DNA of 20,625 nt from a virus: positions 1-20,625 of IMG/VR virus record IMGVR_UViG_3300033997_000287. One strand, given 5' to 3'. Below are positions 4,117-12,861 of the stretch, piece by piece (positions within the stretch are counted from its first letter, which is position 1; each line of letters opens with the position of its first letter). A program made the position numbers and the translations under genes. A model generated the notes under the pieces. That model did not search any database and had not been told where the DNA came from. It saw only the letters and a program-made list of their open reading frames with translations.

Positions 4117-4733
4117 GCTCCCTCGGTGTTTGCTGCGGGCGAAGCGGGTGCTGCTGCAGCGGCGCCTGGCCATATGTCGTCGCGGTATGCCCAATGTGTG
4201 CAGGCGCGGGCAACATCAGCCCCATCCCCATCGCCATCGGTGTGGAAATCACTCGCTCGGATGTCGTGGATCTGGACGCCGCCGAAGTCGTCGTGTGCTG
4301 TGACGGCAATCACGCGCACGGCCCTGTCATCCGTCCACGCCGGAATGCCGGTGCGCCAGGGCAGGGCCACGGTCGCGGGCATAGGCTGTATGTGTGTCCG
4401 CCATTGGTGCCCAGACGGATCGGCGAGCGCTTTTTTCAGGTCCGCCAGGCTCCCGCCAGACAAGTCCACGCCGCACACATAGACCGGCACCTGCTCCAGA
4501 TGCGGTGCAGCAGGAATTCCAGAGGCGGCGAAGGCACCGCGCATGTGGAGCATGTCGCCCAGCACCTGCATGGCTGTGTGCAAATCCTGCTCATGGTTGC
4601 GCACCTCGCGCACGGGGGCTGCGCCCCAATCGGCCACCGGCGTTTGTGCCAGGTTGCCGGCCAGGCCGGCGCGCGTTGCCTCGATGGTGGCAATCAGCCA
4701 CGCGAGGGTCAGTTGAGTGAGGGTCTGGGTCAT
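4113..4733 (-). CDS. Hypothetical phage protein, 206 residues
   Basis: I recognise no family. The N-terminal half is helical (LAWLIATIEATRAGLAG, then HEQDLHTAMQVLGDMLHM). The middle has the strands VPVYVCGVDLSGG and VRVIAVTAHDDFGGVQI, suggesting an alpha/beta fold, and the tail is Ala-rich (WPGAAAAAPASPAANTEGA). The ATG at 4733 follows the stop of the upstream small gene by 3 bases, and its TGA overlaps the methyltransferase start as ATGA, so it belongs to the early operon and may be coupled to methyltransferase translation. No strong ribosome site is visible, which also suggests coupling. Confidence 0.78.
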   Translation of the reverse strand: MTQTLTQLTLAWLIATIEATRAGLAGNLAQTPVADWGAAPVREVRNHEQDLHTAMQVLGDMLHMRGAFAASGIPAAPHLEQVPVYVCGVDLSGGSLADLKKALADPSGHQWRTHIQPMPATVALPWRTGIPAWTDDRAVRVIAVTAHDDFGGVQIHDIRASDFHTDGDGDGADVARACTHWAYRDDIWPGAAAAAPASPAANTEGA

Positions 4734-4736
4734 GGC

Positions 4737-4940
4737 TCAGGCTTCCAGACGTTCAACGCGCAGCACGGGGCGGCCGGTGGCCAGGTGCGCCAGGTTGCTG
4801 GCCGCGCTGGCGGTGGGTGCGCTCAAGTTGTGGGTGGGCAGCAGACCGGCGTCGGCCAGCTGCTCCAGCTCGGCGGCCTCGATGTGCGGGGGAATGATGG
4901 TGGCGCGATAGGTACGCATGGCAGGGGTGGCGTGTTGCAT
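4737..4940 (-). CDS. Hypothetical small phage protein, 67 residues
   Basis: A small protein with an N-terminal strand (MRTYRATIIPPHIEAAELEQLADAG is the recognisable core, here described by positions 8-32) and an Ala/Leu-rich end. No family is recognised. ATG 4940 has AGAGGA six bases upstream, a good ribosome site; an internal ATG at residue 8 is less well supported. It ends 3 bases before the next gene in the early operon. Confidence 0.72.
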   Translation of the reverse strand: MQHATPAMRTYRATIIPPHIEAAELEQLADAGLLPTHNLSAPTASAASNLAHLATGRPVLRVERLEA

Positions 4941-4970
4941 GTTGGTCCTCTGTGGGTGGTGGTTGCGGGT

Positions 4971-5198
4971 TCAGGCGACCAGCTGCAGCTGGGCGGGGTG
5001 GGTTTCGGGGGGTGTGGCGCGCGGCTTGCGGGCGCGGCGCGGCTTCGCTGCGGCCAGGCGCTCGCGCTCGGCGGCGAACACGTTGGCCAGGTGGTCGGGC
5101 GGCGTTCGGTCGCTGCGCACGTAGTCGCCATTGATGGATCGGGCCCAGCAGTGCACGCGGGGCTCAGTGCGGCGGGCGGCGAGGGTGATTTCGGGCAT
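4971..5198 (-). CDS. Hypothetical basic phage protein, 75 residues
   Basis: A small basic protein, rich in Arg, Ala and Pro in its second half (AAAKPRRARKPRATPPE). The first half has short strands (MPEITLAARR, RVHCWARSINGDYV). No family is recognised; the basic tail could bind nucleic acid. The start is well supported: AAAGGAGG lies 7 bases before ATG 5198. It follows the replication initiator by 21 bases and is probably co-transcribed with it. Confidence 0.75.
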   Translation of the reverse strand: MPEITLAARRTEPRVHCWARSINGDYVRSDRTPPDHLANVFAAERERLAAAKPRRARKPRATPPETHPAQLQLVA

Positions 5199-5219
5199 GG
5201 GGTGGCCTCCTTTGCGGGA

Positions 5220-7142
5220 TCAGCGGGAAAAAACGGGGGTGGGGGTGGTGGCGGCGGGCCGGTAGAGCACAGAATCGGGGCTGCTGGGACTGCTCCAGTC
5301 CTCTGCCTCGTGCCGTCCGCGCCCGAAAAGGGCTCGCAGCGTCTCGCCGCGCAGGCGGGCCGTACAGTTATTGAAACCAGTCCAAGGGCGCGCCAGCGGC
5401 GCGCGGTCAGCGCCCATCGCAAGCGCCTTGCCGCTATCTGCGTCCGTGCACGTTGCGGGGTCGAAAGTCTCGGTTTCCTTGGCCACGCTGCGCCAAGAAA
5501 TGCGGCGCGACACCAGCCAGCGGCCGGCGCGCGTTTCCAGGCCCACCACGCGGCCCTGGCCCGGGGCAATCTCTTCGCCGTACTGGTTCACGGCGCCGGC
5601 CGGCACGGGGCGGCGTGCAATGCTCAGGTGCCAGCGGCCACGGCCCACGCAGTGGCCGCCCATGGCCTCCATGTAGCGGCGCCAATCGGCCTTTATGTCG
5701 TCGCTGTGCTTGTGGCACGCGCCCCAGGCCTGCCAGGTGGCGCGGTCGCCGTCCAGGCGCATGGTTTCTATCTGGTCTTTGCCCACGCGGCGCAGCTCGC
5801 GCCACACGCACACGCTGGGCATGCCAATGGCCTGAAACTGGCGAATGCCCCAGCACGCGGCCCAGGCGTCCACACGGCGGTGGCCGGGCATATCACCCTG
5901 CTCCACGTCCCACAGCTGGCCCTGCACCACATCAAGGTGGTCAGCCAGGGCCGCATGGCCCACGCTCTTGGCGATGTACTTGGCCACATAGCCGGCCGCG
6001 CCGCCTGTGGTCATGCGCTTCACGTTCACCCGGTTTTTCGCCGCGCCGCGCTCGTCGCCATCGTCTTTCAGCCACCACTTGCGAATGGCCGCCTCGATGT
6101 GCTGGGCGTGGGCCTCACACTCGGCCCAGACCAGGGCGTGCCAGTGCGGTGTGGCGTCGTGGTGTGGCTCGGCCACGCGAATACCGTACATGGCAATGCC
6201 CACATTGCTCAGGTGCGCGCGCACCCGCGCCCACTTGTCGCGCAGCCACATCTGGGCATCGCGCGGCGTGCTCACGCCGTCATAGCGCGGGTTGGGGCGG
6301 GGCCGGCCGCCGCTGCCCAGCGTCACGGCATGGAAGCGGCTGGGCGCGGTCAGCGTCAGGAACAGGCCCACATGGTTGCGGGCGTCCGCGTATTCCTCGG
6401 CGCCGCGAATGCGCGTCATCAGCTCGCCGCCACGAATCACTGGGTTGGACGGGGACAGTGCCGCCAGCTCGGCCAGGGTGAACACCTGGCCTGCCTCATT
6501 CTTGAAAAGGCTGCGCTCCAGCGCCTTGGCGTTGCGCTCCACCTGCGCGGTGCGGCGGCGCACCGTGGCATTGCTGGCATAGCCGCCCGCAAAGCGATTG
6601 ACCACGCCCAGCTTGACGGCGCCGGCTTCCACCGTGCGCGTCACATGCTTGCGCAGCAGGCGCCGCCACCAGGCCGAATCCATGGCGCGGCGGATGGCGG
6701 GCTCACCCACCAGCGGCGCGGACTCCTGCACGCCCATCATGCGCAGCATCAGGCGCACCAGATCCACGCGCGCCGGCAGGTCGATTGCCTGGGCCTGGGC
6801 GCCTGAATCCAGCTCAGCCACTTCCTCGGCCAGGCGCTTTGCCATGGCGCATATCTCGTAGTCGCTCAGATTCCACTCGGCCGCATTGCCGTGGCGCGCT
6901 GCAAAGTCGTCAATGGCCACCAGCGCGTCAAAGCACGCTGCCCACTCGGGCAGATTGCCCGCGCCCAGCTTGCCCAGGCCCATGGCGCGGATGGGCTGCA
7001 GCCACTGCGGCGGCAATGCCTTCTCCAGCGCCTGCATGGCGGCTTGCACCATGTGCGGGCGGGGCTTGTGGCGCTTCCATTCCTGCTGCGATGCAGTGCG
7101 CAGGCGGCGCCCGGTGGGCTTGGCGTTGAGCAGCGCGGACAT
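5220..7142 (-). CDS. A: Replication initiator, gpA family rolling-circle endonuclease
   Basis: Phage replication protein of the P2 gpA type: a HUH endonuclease that nicks the phage origin, attaches covalently to the 5' end and primes rolling-circle replication. In the 640 residues, motif 1 is FLTLTAPS (261-268), the HUH metal-binding motif is in HHDATPHWHALVW (His333 and His335) and the paired nicking tyrosines are Tyr385 and Tyr389 in GYVAKYIAK. The N-terminal 250 residues are helical. The C-terminal 120 residues are less conserved and end in a Ser/Pro-rich tail. In P2 the origin lies inside the A gene and the protein acts in cis; the same is possible here. ATG 7142 follows the upstream stop by 2 bases. 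This is the largest early gene and identifies the element as P2-like. Confidence 0.95.
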   Translation of the reverse strand: MSALLNAKPTGRRLRTASQQEWKRHKPRPHMVQAAMQALEKALPPQWLQPIRAMGLGKLGAGNLPEWAACFDALVAIDDFAARHGNAAEWNLSDYEICAMAKRLAEEVAELDSGAQAQAIDLPARVDLVRLMLRMMGVQESAPLVGEPAIRRAMDSAWWRRLLRKHVTRTVEAGAVKLGVVNRFAGGYASNATVRRRTAQVERNAKALERSLFKNEAGQVFTLAELAALSPSNPVIRGGELMTRIRGAEEYADARNHVGLFLTLTAPSRFHAVTLGSGGRPRPNPRYDGVSTPRDAQMWLRDKWARVRAHLSNVGIAMYGIRVAEPHHDATPHWHALVWAECEAHAQHIEAAIRKWWLKDDGDERGAAKNRVNVKRMTTGGAAGYVAKYIAKSVGHAALADHLDVVQGQLWDVEQGDMPGHRRVDAWAACWGIRQFQAIGMPSVCVWRELRRVGKDQIETMRLDGDRATWQAWGACHKHSDDIKADWRRYMEAMGGHCVGRGRWHLSIARRPVPAGAVNQYGEEIAPGQGRVVGLETRAGRWLVSRRISWRSVAKETETFDPATCTDADSGKALAMGADRAPLARPWTGFNNCTARLRGETLRALFGRGRHEAEDWSSPSSPDSVLYRPAATTPTPVFSR

Positions 7143-7144
7143 GG

Positions 7145-7558
7145 CTAGTTCTTCACCGTCAGCGAATGCAGCTTCGCCATCTCGTCGGCCATGTAGCGGA
7201 TCTGGGCCTTGATGGCATTGCGCTCAGGCGGCGGCAGCTCGCGCCACTCGCGGCGGCCCAGCTCTTCCAGCTCGCCCTCGATGCCCGCCAGCAGCAGCAC
7301 CGACATGCGAATGCTGATGTGCAGCGTGGACCACTCGCGCGCCTCGGCATCGCTCCATCGGCCATTGCTGGAGCGGTACACGGCATCGTCTTTGAGACGG
7401 CGCAGATGCTCGCGGCACTCTGCGGGGGTCATGCGGGCAATGTGTGGCGCCACGGGCGGCGCAGGCAGGCGATGCAATGCAGGCGCCAGGGACGGGGCAG
7501 CGTTGTGCACGCCCACCCACTGCAGGAATTGCGGTGCGGAGATTTCGGAGAGGTTCAC
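7145..7558 (-). CDS. Hypothetical phage protein, 137 residues, GTG start
   Basis: A mostly helical protein of unknown function. A Pro/Ala-rich N-terminal region (about 22-40) leads into charged amphipathic helices (MTPAECREHLRRLKDDAVY, then LLLAGIEGELEELGRREWREL) that could form a coiled coil. No catalytic motif is visible. The GTG at 7558 is chosen because GGAGGT lies 5 bases upstream and because it overlaps the stop of the preceding small gene as GTGA. The frame stays open further upstream, but that extension overlaps two other coding genes. It ends 2 bases before gpA, so it may be translationally linked to replication. Confidence 0.8.
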   Translation of the reverse strand: MNLSEISAPQFLQWVGVHNAAPSLAPALHRLPAPPVAPHIARMTPAECREHLRRLKDDAVYRSSNGRWSDAEAREWSTLHISIRMSVLLLAGIEGELEELGRREWRELPPPERNAIKAQIRYMADEMAKLHSLTVKN

Positions 7559-9340: not shown

Positions 9341-9904
9341 ATGGATGATTTTTGCGAAAAACTGCGTGAAGAGCGCAAGCGGTTGGCCCTGAGCCAAGAC
9401 GGCTTTGCAGAGCTTGCCGGCGTCTCCAAGAACTCGCAGTTCAACTACGAGGCGGGCACGCGTCAGCCGGATGTGGCGTACCTGAAAACAATCCAACAAA
9501 TGGGGGTTGATCTCGTTTACCTGTTCACGGGCGAGCGGTCGTTCGATCCCAGCGCCACGCAACACTCGCAACCGGCCGCCACGCTTGCGGCCCGCCTGGT
9601 TCAAGAGCGCAAGCGGCTGGAGTTGACCGTGGGCCAGCTGGCCGACAAGTCGGGCGTGGATCGCCTGGCACTGCTGAAATTTGAAGAGGGCGAGTTCGCG
9701 CCCGACGCCAAGGCGCTGCAGCAGCTGCACGCCGTGGGCGTGGATGTGGGCTATGTGCTGCTGTCGCTCCGCGCGGGCGGTGATGCCGGTGCGGCGGCCT
9801 CAGTCAGTTCTGAGTCACAGCAGCTGCTGCAGCACTACGAAAAGGCACCCGAAGAGGCACAGGCCGCATTGCGCACGCTGGCGGCCATGGTGGCCCGGGG
9901 GTGA
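9341..9904 (+). CDS. Phage repressor with two XRE-like HTH modules
   Basis: Likely lysogeny repressor, judged by position opposite the early operon and by fold. Residues 5-65 form an XRE helix-turn-helix (LREERKRLALSQDGFAELAG and so on, ending VDLVYLFTGE). Residues 84-144 repeat the pattern (LVQERKRLELTVGQLADKSG, ending VDVGYVLLSL), sharing the ERKRLxL start. The last 40 residues form a helical tail (SSESQQLLQHYEKAPEEAQA). There is no S24 peptidase domain, so it cannot self-cleave during the SOS response. No ribosome site precedes ATG 9341; a leaderless transcript, as for lambda cI, is possible. The second module may be a dimerisation domain rather than a DNA reader. Confidence is high in regulator, moderate in master repressor. 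Confidence 0.88.
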   Translation: MDDFCEKLREERKRLALSQDGFAELAGVSKNSQFNYEAGTRQPDVAYLKTIQQMGVDLVYLFTGERSFDPSATQHSQPAATLAARLVQERKRLELTVGQLADKSGVDRLALLKFEEGEFAPDAKALQQLHAVGVDVGYVLLSLRAGGDAGAAASVSSESQQLLQHYEKAPEEAQAALRTLAAMVARG

Positions 9905-9909
9905 CAGGC

Positions 9910-9932
9910 CTTGGCGCATTGATTGCGCCAAG
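9910..9932 (+). other. Perfect hairpin after the repressor gene
   Basis: CTTGGCGCA and TGCGCCAAG form a 9-base perfect stem around a TTGAT loop, immediately after the repressor stop and before the ribosome site of the next gene. No T-run follows. It may be an attenuator, an mRNA-stabilising 3' structure, or a protein-binding site. Confidence 0.6.
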
Positions 9933-9955
9933 AGTCGATGAACGAGGGGGGAACC

Positions 9956-10903
9956 ATGACAGAGCTAGAGTTCTGGCTGACGTTAGCGGCAATGTTCGCC
10001 GGCACTGCGTGGACATACCGGGTTGCCATGCAGGCCTTCAAGTCAAAGACTTGGGTAGCGCGTTGTCTGGCTGCGATCTTGAGTCTTGGCGGCACTTTTG
10101 CAGGCTTCTGCCTTGGGGCGGGGCAACGCACCATCGGCTTGGCAGTTCTGGGGTTGATCGTTCTTTCACCCTACGTTTATGTCGCTTGGCGCACTCGGCG
10201 GCGCGCAAAAACTCCAGAGCATCACAAGGCGGTGCCTGCCCCTCTGCCTGAAAACATCCCGCCCCCATCGGCCCTGGCTGATAGTCCCTCACCCACGCCT
10301 GCCGTGGCGCCCATCGTTCCCGAGCTGTTCCACCTTGTCGCATCGCCTGCCGGTGCCACGCAGCCCGGAGCTGCAGCCCGCAGCACATCCAACCCGCTGC
10401 CCCATCGCTACCGTTTCGCCTACCAAGGTTTTTCAGGCGATGAGGGCCAGCGCACGGTGCTGGTGCAAAGCATTGGCGAGAACGGCGCCAACACCTACCT
10501 TGAAGGCCGCTGCGAGCAGGCCCGGGCGCCGCGCACGTTCCGCACAGACCGCATCAGCGGCCCGCTGGTGGACATGGACACGGGCGAGCTGCTGCAGGTG
10601 CACGAGCTGCTGGCCCTGGTGCCGGAACGCAGCTATGTGGATGTGAGCCCGCCAGCATCGGCCCAGCGCAAACCCCAGGAGTGGCGCCAGGCCGTACTGT
10701 TCACGGGCTTTCCACAGAAGCGGCGCGATGAATTGGAAGAGATGGCCGAGGCGGCCGGCTGGCTGGTGCGCGGAAGTGTCGGGCCAACGCTCGATTACAT
10801 GGTGACAGGGCCAAGGGCAGGCACCTCAAAGCTGACACAGGCTCAGGAGCACGGCACGATTGTGGTGGGCGAGGCAGACTTTCTCGCCCTGCTTCACAGC
10901 TGA
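9956..10903 (+). CDS. Membrane protein with WYL-like and BRCT domains
   Basis: A 315-residue protein of unusual architecture. Three hydrophobic segments (about 5-25, 33-55 and 59-78) are followed by RTRRRAK, so the rest is probably cytoplasmic. A Pro/Ala-rich linker (93-148) leads to a WYL-like fold (150-222: YRFAY, RTV, YLEGRC, RTFRTDRI, D-x-DTGE). The C-terminus is a BRCT domain (244-313: AVLFTGFPQKRRDELEEMAE, YMVTGP, AGTSKLTQAQEHG, GEADFLALL) like the one at the end of bacterial DNA ligase. WYL domains sense nucleic-acid-linked ligands and BRCT domains bind nicked or phosphorylated DNA ends. A membrane-tethered DNA-damage or phage-DNA sensor is inferred, not shown. ATG 9956 has GGGGGG 5 bases upstream. 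It follows the repressor and ends at a strong terminator, so it is probably expressed in the lysogen. Confidence 0.85.
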   Translation: MTELEFWLTLAAMFAGTAWTYRVAMQAFKSKTWVARCLAAILSLGGTFAGFCLGAGQRTIGLAVLGLIVLSPYVYVAWRTRRRAKTPEHHKAVPAPLPENIPPPSALADSPSPTPAVAPIVPELFHLVASPAGATQPGAAARSTSNPLPHRYRFAYQGFSGDEGQRTVLVQSIGENGANTYLEGRCEQARAPRTFRTDRISGPLVDMDTGELLQVHELLALVPERSYVDVSPPASAQRKPQEWRQAVLFTGFPQKRRDELEEMAEAAGWLVRGSVGPTLDYMVTGPRAGTSKLTQAQEHGTIVVGEADFLALLHS

Positions 10904-10910
10904 CCAACCC

Positions 10911-10936
10911 AAGCCCGCTGCATGCGGGCTTTTTTG
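10911..10936 (+). terminator. Rho-independent terminator after the WYL-BRCT gene
   Basis: AAGCCCGC and GCGGGCTT pair across a TGCAT loop and are followed by a T-run. It starts 8 bases after the stop codon of the membrane-WYL-BRCT gene and closes the repressor transcript. Confidence 0.92.
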
Positions 10937-11004: not shown

Positions 11005-11022
11005 ACTGTATATTTGTACAGT
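11005..11022 (+). promoter_or_regulatory. LexA box overlapping a -10 element
   Basis: ACTGTATATTTGTACAGT is CTGT-N8-ACAG with flanking A and T, very close to the E. coli and betaproteobacterial LexA consensus. TATATT at 11009-11014 inside the box is a good -10 hexamer; transcription would start near 11021, where a GTG codon begins the next gene. The -35 region is poor. The two genes after it should be repressed by host LexA and induced by DNA damage. Confidence 0.88.
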
Positions 11023-11470
11023 GAACTGCGAAATTACCTTCCTCCGCCGCAACGGGGTGCGCTTGCACCCCCGTGACTGGCCCGCGCCCGTGGCAGGCGA
11101 TCTGCGCATGGAGTATTCGGACGGCCGCAAGAACAACATGCGCCGCACGCTGCGCGAGTTCCGACTGTACGAGTGCTGGATATCGCTGGAGCATTCGCGC
11201 TATGGGCTGTCGGACCCCATCCCCGTGGACATCCTGGGCGATGCAATGCTGTGGCGCGGCTACACCACGGCCATGACGCCCGAGGGGCTGGCCGAGTTTG
11301 AGCAGCTGTGGCTGATCCGCCCCAGGCCCACGCTGGACGACACGCCGCTGCCGGCATTCGATTGGGCGGCGCATGTGGAGCAGCTGCCGCAAGCCATTGC
11401 GCCCACGCCCGAGCGGTCGGAAACCGTGGCAGAGCAGTGGCACAGGGAGCACGTCCGTGTATCCAGATGA
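11021..11470 (+). CDS. LexA-controlled protein of unknown family, possible antirepressor
   Basis: A 149-residue protein I cannot assign to a family. It has an N-terminal strand region (VNCEITFLRRNGVRLHPRDW), a central part with YECWISLEHSRYGLSDPIPV and LGDAMLWRGYTTAMTPEGLA, and a Pro-rich acidic C-terminus. The start is uncertain: GTG 11021 lies within the LexA box at the predicted transcription start (leaderless), GTG 10997 lies before the box, and ATG 11109 is internal; none has a good ribosome site. A LexA box directly at the start makes it an SOS gene. In coliphage 186 the LexA-repressed tum gene encodes an antirepressor that induces the prophage; a similar role here is inference. It overlaps the next gene by 14 bases. 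Confidence 0.75.
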   Translation: MNCEITFLRRNGVRLHPRDWPAPVAGDLRMEYSDGRKNNMRRTLREFRLYECWISLEHSRYGLSDPIPVDILGDAMLWRGYTTAMTPEGLAEFEQLWLIRPRPTLDDTPLPAFDWAAHVEQLPQAIAPTPERSETVAEQWHREHVRVSR

Positions 11471-11678
11471 TGACCCGCTCAACGTGCTGCACCCCACCCT
11501 GGTGCGGCCGCCGCTCTGGGCCAGGATGTGGGCTGAAAAAGTGCTGCCCCTGCGCCCCGAGGACTACCGCGTGGTGCACATCGGCCCGCACTGGACGCGG
11601 GTGTTTGCGCCCGATGGCGAAGTGGTCTATGACACCGTAGGCCCGGCTGAAGTGATTCGCTCAAATGCCCCGTTCTGA
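11457..11678 (+). CDS. Small partner protein in the SOS cassette, 73 residues
   Basis: A 73-residue protein starting at GTG 11457 with GGGAG 7 bases upstream. It overlaps the end of the LexA-controlled gene by 14 bases, so the two are co-expressed and probably coupled. The sequence has a helix with RPPLWARMWAEKVLPL and a compact strand pair, YRVVHIGPHWTRVFAPDG followed by EVVYDT. No family is recognised. The two proteins may act together. A strong terminator follows 7 bases after the stop. Confidence 0.75.
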   Translation: MYPDDDPLNVLHPTLVRPPLWARMWAEKVLPLRPEDYRVVHIGPHWTRVFAPDGEVVYDTVGPAEVIRSNAPF

Positions 11679-12314: not shown

Positions 12315-12608
12315 TCATGCGGCCAGCTTGCCCTTTTTCACGGCCTCCCGCAGCACTTCATTGACGCGTGATTGCCATCCGGCCCCCGTGGCCTTGATGG
12401 CCTCCAGCACATCGGCGTCCACGCGCATGGTCATGGGCATTTTTGGCTGTTCCAGTGGGGGCCGGCCACGCCGGGCCAGCGTTTGCATGCCGGCGAGCAT
12501 GTCGCCCGTGATTTCCATGGTGTCCGGGTCTTGTTCGATGCCCCGGGCAATGGCGGCATCTTCGGCCGCCGTGGGCTGGATCAGCCCCACTTTCTTAGAT
12601 TGCTTCAT
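12315..12608 (-). CDS. brnA: BrnA antitoxin
   Basis: Ribbon-helix-helix antitoxin that neutralises BrnT and represses their shared promoter. In 97 residues the N-terminal part (about 1-48) is the helical toxin-binding region, and the C-terminal part (58-92) is the DNA-binding fold with MTMRVDADVLEAIKATGAGW and SRVNEVLREAV. A basic Pro-rich linker (RRGRPPLEQPKMP) joins them, as usual for the BrnA family. It overlaps the toxin stop by 14 bases and follows it, the canonical brnTA order with the toxin first. ATG 12608 is the family start; the frame upstream is antisense-like noise inside brnT. The gene probably stabilises the prophage. Confidence 0.92.
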   Translation of the reverse strand: MKQSKKVGLIQPTAAEDAAIARGIEQDPDTMEITGDMLAGMQTLARRGRPPLEQPKMPMTMRVDADVLEAIKATGAGWQSRVNEVLREAVKKGKLAA

Positions 12609-12861
12609 AAGCCTTGACCTCTCTGGAGTTTGCCTTGCGGAGACTGACGATTCGCATGGTCTGCCCGCGCTGCACGAACACCACAACGTACAGCCGTTGC
12701 CCGATGACAGCGAAGCCGATTTCGCGGACTTCGCCGTAGTCCCGGCGCGCATCCGGCATGCACAGAACATCACTCCATTCGATGTGGCCCGCCATCTCCA
12801 GCGAAACGCCGTGCTTGTCGATGTTGGCCTGATTCTTGGCGGGGTCGAATTCGATGTCCAT
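12595..12861 (-). CDS. brnT: BrnT toxin, RelE-like ribonuclease
   Basis: Toxin of a type II system; BrnT proteins have a RelE-like fold and inhibit translation by cleaving RNA. The 88 residues begin with the typical MDIEFDPAKNQANIDKHGVS, carry the central EWSDVLCMPDARRDYGEVRE, and end with the conserved MRIVSLRKANSREVKAYEA. The length matches the family. The start ATG lies at the edge of the operator palindrome, next to the predicted transcription start, so the message may be leaderless. The intact gene and canonical partner indicate a functional pair. The location downstream of gpD is typical of accessory cargo in P2-like phages. Confidence 0.93.
   Translation of the reverse strand: MDIEFDPAKNQANIDKHGVSLEMAGHIEWSDVLCMPDARRDYGEVREIGFAVIGQRLYVVVFVQRGQTMRIVSLRKANSREVKAYEAI

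Follow-up and report, generated by a model that had tools for sequence, protein, structure and literature searches.

The window, the whole 20,625-nucleotide stretch of viral DNA analysed here, is a dormant P2-like virus (prophage) of a Comamonas-type bacterium. The gene directly behind its repressor encodes a 315-aa protein. It begins with three membrane helices; a disordered linker then leads to a WYL barrel, and a single BRCT domain forms the C-terminal part. WYL and BRCT are known from DNA-damage control. Many P2-like phages carry them as a repressor-linked pair of nucleic-acid sensing domains, misnamed 'DNA ligase' or 'exonuclease', and one clade, a small and coherent subfamily that includes the window protein, has moved both onto the membrane. 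We tentatively explain the protein as a lysogen-expressed, Rex-like sensor of DNA structure that may serve exclusion or influence the lysis-lysogeny switch. If such proteins do play a part in exclusion or induction, a sensor of DNA damage or infection has gone unrecognised in a whole class of prophages.

Architecture of the anchored WYL-BRCT protein

The gene and its parts are as follows.

9956..10903, + strand: membrane-anchored WYL-BRCT gene, 315 aa (ORF list, Pfam, AlphaFold2, orthologue comparison)
9962..10042, + strand: TM helix 1, residues 3-29 (AlphaFold2; weak hydropathy in the window copy)
10052..10117, + strand: TM helix 2, residues 33-54 (AlphaFold2, hydropathy)
10133..10207, + strand: TM helix 3, residues 60-84, ending in basic WRTRRRAK (AlphaFold2, hydropathy)
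10208..10402, + strand: Pro/Ala-rich disordered linker (residues 87-143 mostly with pLDDT < 50)
10403..10573, + strand: WYL domain, residues 150-206 (Pfam, AlphaFold2, Foldseek, PafB alignment)
10691..10897, + strand: BRCT domain, residues 246-314, with pocket T250-G251, R257 and K292 (Pfam, profile search, Foldseek, VIA-align)

The ORF starts with ATG behind a strong Shine-Dalgarno sequence, GAGGGGGG, at 9944-9951 (read from the sequence). A sequence-only reading of this DNA had assigned it three membrane helices, a WYL and a BRCT domain, and Pfam matches above the cut-offs, AlphaFold2 and Foldseek concur. Structure prediction had been proposed as a check on the two folds; AlphaFold2, run on a 28-sequence alignment, and Foldseek found both, and the pTM of 0.36 means that the placement of WYL relative to BRCT is not predicted. 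The Pfam scan and the AlphaFold2 model contain no HTH in this chain, the HTH sitting in the adjacent gene, and the 315-aa protein has no enzymatic effector domain.

The WYL domain matches PF13280 over residues 150-201 (Pfam, E 1.7e-8, 34.8 bits vs a cut-off of 21.8) and is modelled as a five-strand SH3/Sm-like barrel at 150-206 with pLDDT 93-96. Foldseek against the PDB matched this part to BrxR, PafBC, CapW and DriD. Independently of Foldseek, a profile search of PDB sequences ranked the RFC1 BRCT, LigA and PafBC at the top. In the alignment to M. smegmatis PafB (7p5x chain AY), R166, Y181, R193, R196 and R199 correspond to PafB R181, Y196, R208, R211 and R214; the position of PafB R204 is taken by A189, which R190 adjoins. 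In PafBC, those residues fall in sets whose mutation abolishes ssDNA binding (PMC11804915). They are kept across the family (alignment of 28 sequences), with R196 and R199 in 28/28, R or K at 193 in 28/28, and Y181 as Y in 22/28 and H in 6/28; these conserved DNA-contact residues are in line with the sensor of DNA that had been proposed. By likeness to known families, the WYL domain of the window protein may bind ssDNA.

The BRCT domain matches PF00533 over residues 248-312 (Pfam, E 2.3e-8, 34.6 bits vs a cut-off of 21.3) and is modelled at 246-314 with pLDDT 92-97, lower just at the first residues. RFC1 p140 and LigA were its Foldseek matches in the PDB. VIA-align gave Z of about 11 to the BRCTs of RFC1 and TopBP1/Rad4, with Z 11.1 (rmsd 2.0, 74 residues) for 2ebu and Z 11.4 (rmsd 1.9, 73 residues) for 7u1a; all these rows are BRCT chains and bear on the BRCT alone, not on the WYL or TM parts. 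We take the BRCT pocket of the 5'-phosphate DNA-binding class (RFC1, LigA) to comprise T-G at the end of strand 1, an Arg/Lys at helix 1 and a Lys at the start of helix 2; in RFC1 these positions bind a 5'-phosphate. In the same 28-sequence alignment the pocket is kept (T250 27/28, G251 28/28, R/K257 27/28, K292 27/28). The sole exception, L090, has A in place of T250 and L in place of both R257 and K292, and retains the architecture; its gene (6791-7492) is a natural pocket variant and a possible loss-of-binding control. Again judged from known families, the BRCT of the window protein may bind 5' ends or junctions.

In the membrane part, TM1 is weak in the window copy (mean hydropathy 1.08) and clear in six orthologues (1.6-2.2). 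Across seven orthologues, K+R counts are 0 before TM1, 1-6 in loop 1, 0-1 in loop 2 and 2-6 after TM3, a distribution that by the positive-inside rule places the WYL-BRCT head on the cytoplasmic side. The predicted topology is N-out/C-in, in keeping with the membrane-anchored sensor layout suggested earlier. No Pfam family matches the TM module above cut-off (SCAMP, at E 0.11, is sub-threshold).

Three other viral contigs encode full-length orthologues at 70-78% identity. Compared with its three closest relatives, the window copy shows 84-93% identity over WYL+BRCT (dS 0.2-0.4, dN/dS 0.15-0.22). Over the TM part, identity falls to about 50% and dS nears saturation, with dN/dS 0.2-0.5 where estimable. 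The gene is probably a mosaic, its membrane module exchanged yet constrained. We considered whether this module is inherited together with the specificity half of the repressor and rejected the idea, since L002 and L004 have near-identical repressor N-termini and TM modules merely 66% alike.

N-terminal membrane helices precede WYL-BRCT in 11 sampled sequences: the window, L002, L003, L004, L162 (Comamonas testosteroni), L090, L163 (Glaciimonas immobilis), L191, L208, L210 and L211. The varied TM regions had suggested several independent gains of the anchor, but in a 53-row tree a single branch (support 100/98, 100% of bootstrap trees) separates all 11 from the other rows. Ten of the 11 lie in P2-like prophages or contigs, most of them in Burkholderiales P2-like prophages. 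The remaining one, L211 (the same place as L218), is chromosomal, by an hrpA-like helicase gene, and has one weak helix. This prophage context, with its one chromosomal exception, supports the sequence-only reading. At L218 (9060-10031; chromosomal, non-prophage) the protein consists of one helix, a middle region without assignment, WYL and BRCT, and the helicase gene adjoins. In L163, the gene upstream of the anchored WYL-BRCT (5497-6063) encodes a TM hairpin of similar kind, joined to a tRNA_anti-like domain (PF12869, 1.1e-14). Outside the anchored clade, L160 (6542-7768) has a soluble-type WYL-BRCT with, on its C-terminal side, an acidic stretch and then a strongly hydrophobic segment, a predicted second, independent membrane attachment.

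The repressor-side slot in the window and in other phages

Around the gene, the window contains the following features.

9341..9904, + strand: repressor-like protein with two HTH_3 and no S24 peptidase (Pfam HTH_3 4.6e-13, 2 stretches; PHROG transcriptional regulator)
9911..9931, + strand: short hairpin TTGGCGCA-TTGAT-TGCGCCAA without T-run, in the repressor/WYL-BRCT gap (read from the sequence; not scored as terminator)
10911..10936, + strand: intrinsic terminator AAGCCCGC-TGCAT-GCGGGCTT (10911-10931) with T-run, closing the repressor/WYL-BRCT unit (terminator scan)
11006..11021, + strand: LexA-box-like CTGTATATTTGTACAG, opening a separate downstream unit (1 match vs 0.18 expected)

The repressor gene ends 51 bases upstream of the WYL-BRCT gene, and the terminator scan found no terminator between them on the + strand; the two genes would form one operon. 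The LexA-box-like site marks the next two ORFs (10997/11021-11470 and 11373-11678) as a separate unit. These ORFs overlap, are conserved at 82-97% in L002-L004 and have a distant (30%) counterpart in L222 (9766-10095). The gene had been described as lying after the repressor and before an SOS cassette; the HTH repressor upstream and the LexA-box-like site downstream bear this out, while the cassette ORFs themselves have no Pfam or PHROG match. The segment 11006-11678 is probably an SOS-controlled phage module, possibly an antirepressor. Further along, a BrnT/BrnA toxin-antitoxin pair (12315-12861, - strand) separates the SOS-like ORFs from tail gene D, a position that it also has in L002, L162, L163 and L215. 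At the other end of the window, a tRNA-Leu gene (46-132) stands beside the integrase (204-1343), at what is probably the prophage attachment site.

A survey of the neighbourhoods of homologues, as had been proposed, covered 21 loci scored against annotated P2-like proteins, with upstream ORFs listed and Pfam run on ten upstream genes. An HTH/CI repressor lies directly upstream of the WYL gene and in the same direction at 20 loci, with the window and PV94 counted (window, L002-L004, L162, L090, L215, L216, L219, L220, L222-L224, L094, L105, L157, L158, L166, L084, L085); since the window and L002-L004 are closely related to one another, the number of independent cases is below 20. A CI-like repressor directly precedes the WYL gene in Mannheimia PHL101 and Vibrio PV94. 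The two genes overlap or are at most 3 bp apart in L090, L215, L094 and L084, and the upstream repressors are of unlike kinds (S24, CI_C and HTH-only by Pfam). Exceptions to the adjacency are L217 and L006 (one small gene between), L005, L163, L221 and L218. In L005, of the Escherichia clade, an integrase and a RES-annotated gene separate the repressor from WYL-BRCT; the latter gene (4493-5698 in Escherichia phage Cartapus, between the integrase and the soluble WYL-BRCT) has no Pfam match.

What stays constant in this slot is the WYL gene, on the repressor side. The genes downstream of it include a KAP NTPase (L157), DUF3800 (L084), DUF2971 (L105) and a 37-kD nucleoid protein (L156). In P2-related Vibrio phages, the stretch from cI to integrase is an antiviral hotspot according to Rousset et al. 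(PMC9122126). The sequence-only reading had placed the gene where P2-like phages carry lysogenic cargo, and the repressor-proximal slot, with defence-like genes in related phages, agrees with it. Among defence models, none matches the WYL-BRCT protein over its full length; the PADLOC candidate PDC-S48 matches residues 211-314 with positions 294-406 of its 411-aa model (E 7.2e-10), and no description of PDC-S48 was found in the papers searched.

Soluble WYL-BRCT proteins (about 160-185 aa) are common in Peduoviridae, where their gene usually comes right behind that of the repressor. A single scan of the viral contigs gave 66 loci with an Escherichia query sequence, a Pseudomonas query sequence gave 10, and 18 phage records contain such proteins annotated as DNA ligase, exonuclease or hypothetical. 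The statement that BRCT domains are rare in phage proteins was therefore overstated, soluble WYL-BRCT being a standard repressor-adjacent gene in Peduoviridae. No consistent membrane-protein neighbour of the soluble members was seen in the operons examined, and for lack of a consistent partner we rejected the idea that they work with a separate membrane partner gene of which the fusion would be the Rosetta stone.

A first pattern scan of species-representative genomes found no close relatives; a wider profile gave 19 loci there, of which 11 have WYL as well as BRCT, and a plasmid search gave no match. Matches were found in 10/399 genomes of the family of Comamonas (three BRCT-only), in 8/198 of the family of Pseudomonas fontis (three TM-WYL) and in 3/53 within Comamonas itself. 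Such sporadic occurrence fits prophage cargo. In the Burkholderiales L198, L213, L197, L199, L212 and L214, LigA-like and small (130-155 aa) proteins have a similar C-terminal BRCT, which comes after a short SKSPF...EGWxWVYAN segment, without WYL.

The WYL-BRCT fusion was already listed in a 2014 survey (PMC4012209), the only literature found with both 'WYL domain' and BRCT. The sequence-only reading knew of no described system with such an arrangement; the pairing is known and its soluble phage forms are plentiful, and it is the membrane-anchored form that is new. As far as the literature searched shows, neither the anchored subfamily nor the link to the repressor nor the mapping of the residues has been described. 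We know of no membrane-anchored WYL sensor or membrane-anchored BRCT with a described bacterial function.

Candidate functions

We infer DNA binding, trigger and output as follows. As a putative part of the operon for lysogeny (immunity) in a P2-like prophage, the gene would, judging from its position, be expressed with the repressor in the lysogen. Its three helices (N-out, C-in) would fix the protein in the inner membrane, and the flexible linker would let the head reach cytoplasmic DNA. There, WYL could grip ssDNA as in PafBC and DriD, and BRCT could recognise a phosphorylated DNA end or junction as in RFC1 and LigA. Such structures would build up when a second phage injects and replicates its DNA, or when the host chromosome is damaged. 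Binding might be relayed to the membrane module, to the neighbouring repressor or to both, so that the second phage would be excluded or the lysis-lysogeny switch pushed, in a manner functionally Rex-like and non-homologous. The superinfection exclusion or abortive defence that had been suggested for the gene may be one form of this output. It counts against exclusion that most family members have no membrane part or other recognisable effector, and against the explanation as a whole that L090 retains the architecture despite having lost the equivalents of T250, R257 and K292, that the chain has no enzymatic effector domain and that no defence model matches it over its length. As most relatives are soluble and without a consistent membrane neighbour, a pore-like output is unlikely as the function of the whole family; the shared function may be regulatory, with the membrane as an added localisation.

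In another reading, which we find doubtful, the protein is purely a partner of the repressor. WYL regulators normally have HTH and WYL in one chain; here the ligand-sensing half would be split from the HTH, and bound DNA damage products would alter repressor activity and tune induction, through antirepression, co-repression or sequestration at the membrane, with no phage exclusion. The adjacency across unlike repressor families and phages, including loci of the Pseudomonas phage SC_8 type (one small gene between), argues for it, as do the overlapping repressor and WYL genes at several loci and the nearest WYL folds, which are the HTH-WYL regulators PafBC, BrxR, CapW and DriD; soluble members would suffice for such a task. 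However, it has no need for membrane anchoring, no single-chain HTH-WYL form of the WYL-BRCT family was seen, and the Escherichia clade has an integrase and a RES-annotated gene between repressor and WYL-BRCT.

In its stricter form, the Rex-like explanation would make the protein a one-protein Rex analogue, a sensor of DNA ends and ssDNA with its own membrane effector, made together with the repressor, which senses foreign phage replication or DNA damage and perturbs the membrane or draws the repressor to it. We regard this version as unlikely.

It is improbable that the protein is a DNA-maintenance factor of the phage, tethering phage DNA that is broken or being replicated (nicking by gpA leaves 5' ends) to the membrane for protection, replication or packaging in the lytic cycle. 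Its BRCT most resembles those of RFC1 and LigA, proteins that work at nicks and 5' ends, and the window has P2-like rolling-circle replication by gpA (5220-7142). But WYL-BRCT is transcribed in the direction of the repressor, opposite to gpA and the late genes, so that it should be expressed in the lysogen rather than during lytic growth. Moreover, presence in a few per cent of genomes and absence from P2 itself indicate that it is no core replication gene.

An ordinary moron with no specific immunity role, such as a decayed fragment of DNA ligase type, is very improbable: PHROG (PHROG_2561) and RefSeq do call the soluble relatives 'DNA ligase' and some chromosomal LigA-like proteins (L198, L213) bear a similar C-terminal BRCT, but ligase identity was rejected since the BRCT alone is in common (no more than about the last 70-85 residues match LigA models, at scores of 25-29 vs cut-offs of 369-1051), there is no adenylation, OB or HhH domain, WYL is foreign to ligase, and the gene is under purifying selection (the dN/dS given above), with its architecture conserved across the clade.

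Comparison with known systems

The BRCT of RFC1 p140 and LigA is, like that of the window protein, a single BRCT; it is the best match in sequence and fold, with T-G...R...K aligned, but the window protein lacks the clamp-loader or ligase parts. PafBC, DriD, BrxR and CapW share its WYL fold and ssDNA-contact residues. In contrast to them, it has no HTH and no WCX, and adds the membrane anchor and the BRCT.

Closer relatives are found among phages. The soluble Peduoviridae proteins (Mannheimia PHL101 ORF34, Vibrio PV94 gp04, Escherichia Cartapus CARTA_32) have the same core at about 30% identity, the same contact residues and the same repressor-side slot, but not the membrane helices, the long linker and the WYL extension GxLxDxxTGE, all of which the window protein has. 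TM-WYL proteins of Dobby-like Pseudomonas prophages (L219, 8745-9329; L220, 9238-9777; L221, 8918-9337) occupy the same slot with an N-terminal membrane helix and the GxLxDxxTGE extension of the anchored clade; unlike the window protein, they have one helix and no BRCT.

The lambda rex genes are expressed with cI from PRM, and RexA, a non-specific DNA binder, biases the switch (PMC11077077). The membrane is where RexB-type effectors act, and in P. putida RexAB it is RexB that damages it (PMC12894663). No Rex family appears among the Pfam, PHROG, NCBIfam and PADLOC matches of the window protein. The likeness to lambda RexA/RexB and P. putida RexAB is one of layout: the gene lies directly behind the repressor and in the same direction, lysogenic expression is expected, and a predicted DNA sensor is combined with a membrane part. 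Rex systems achieve this with two genes and other proteins, whereas the window protein would do so in one chain, with WYL and BRCT.
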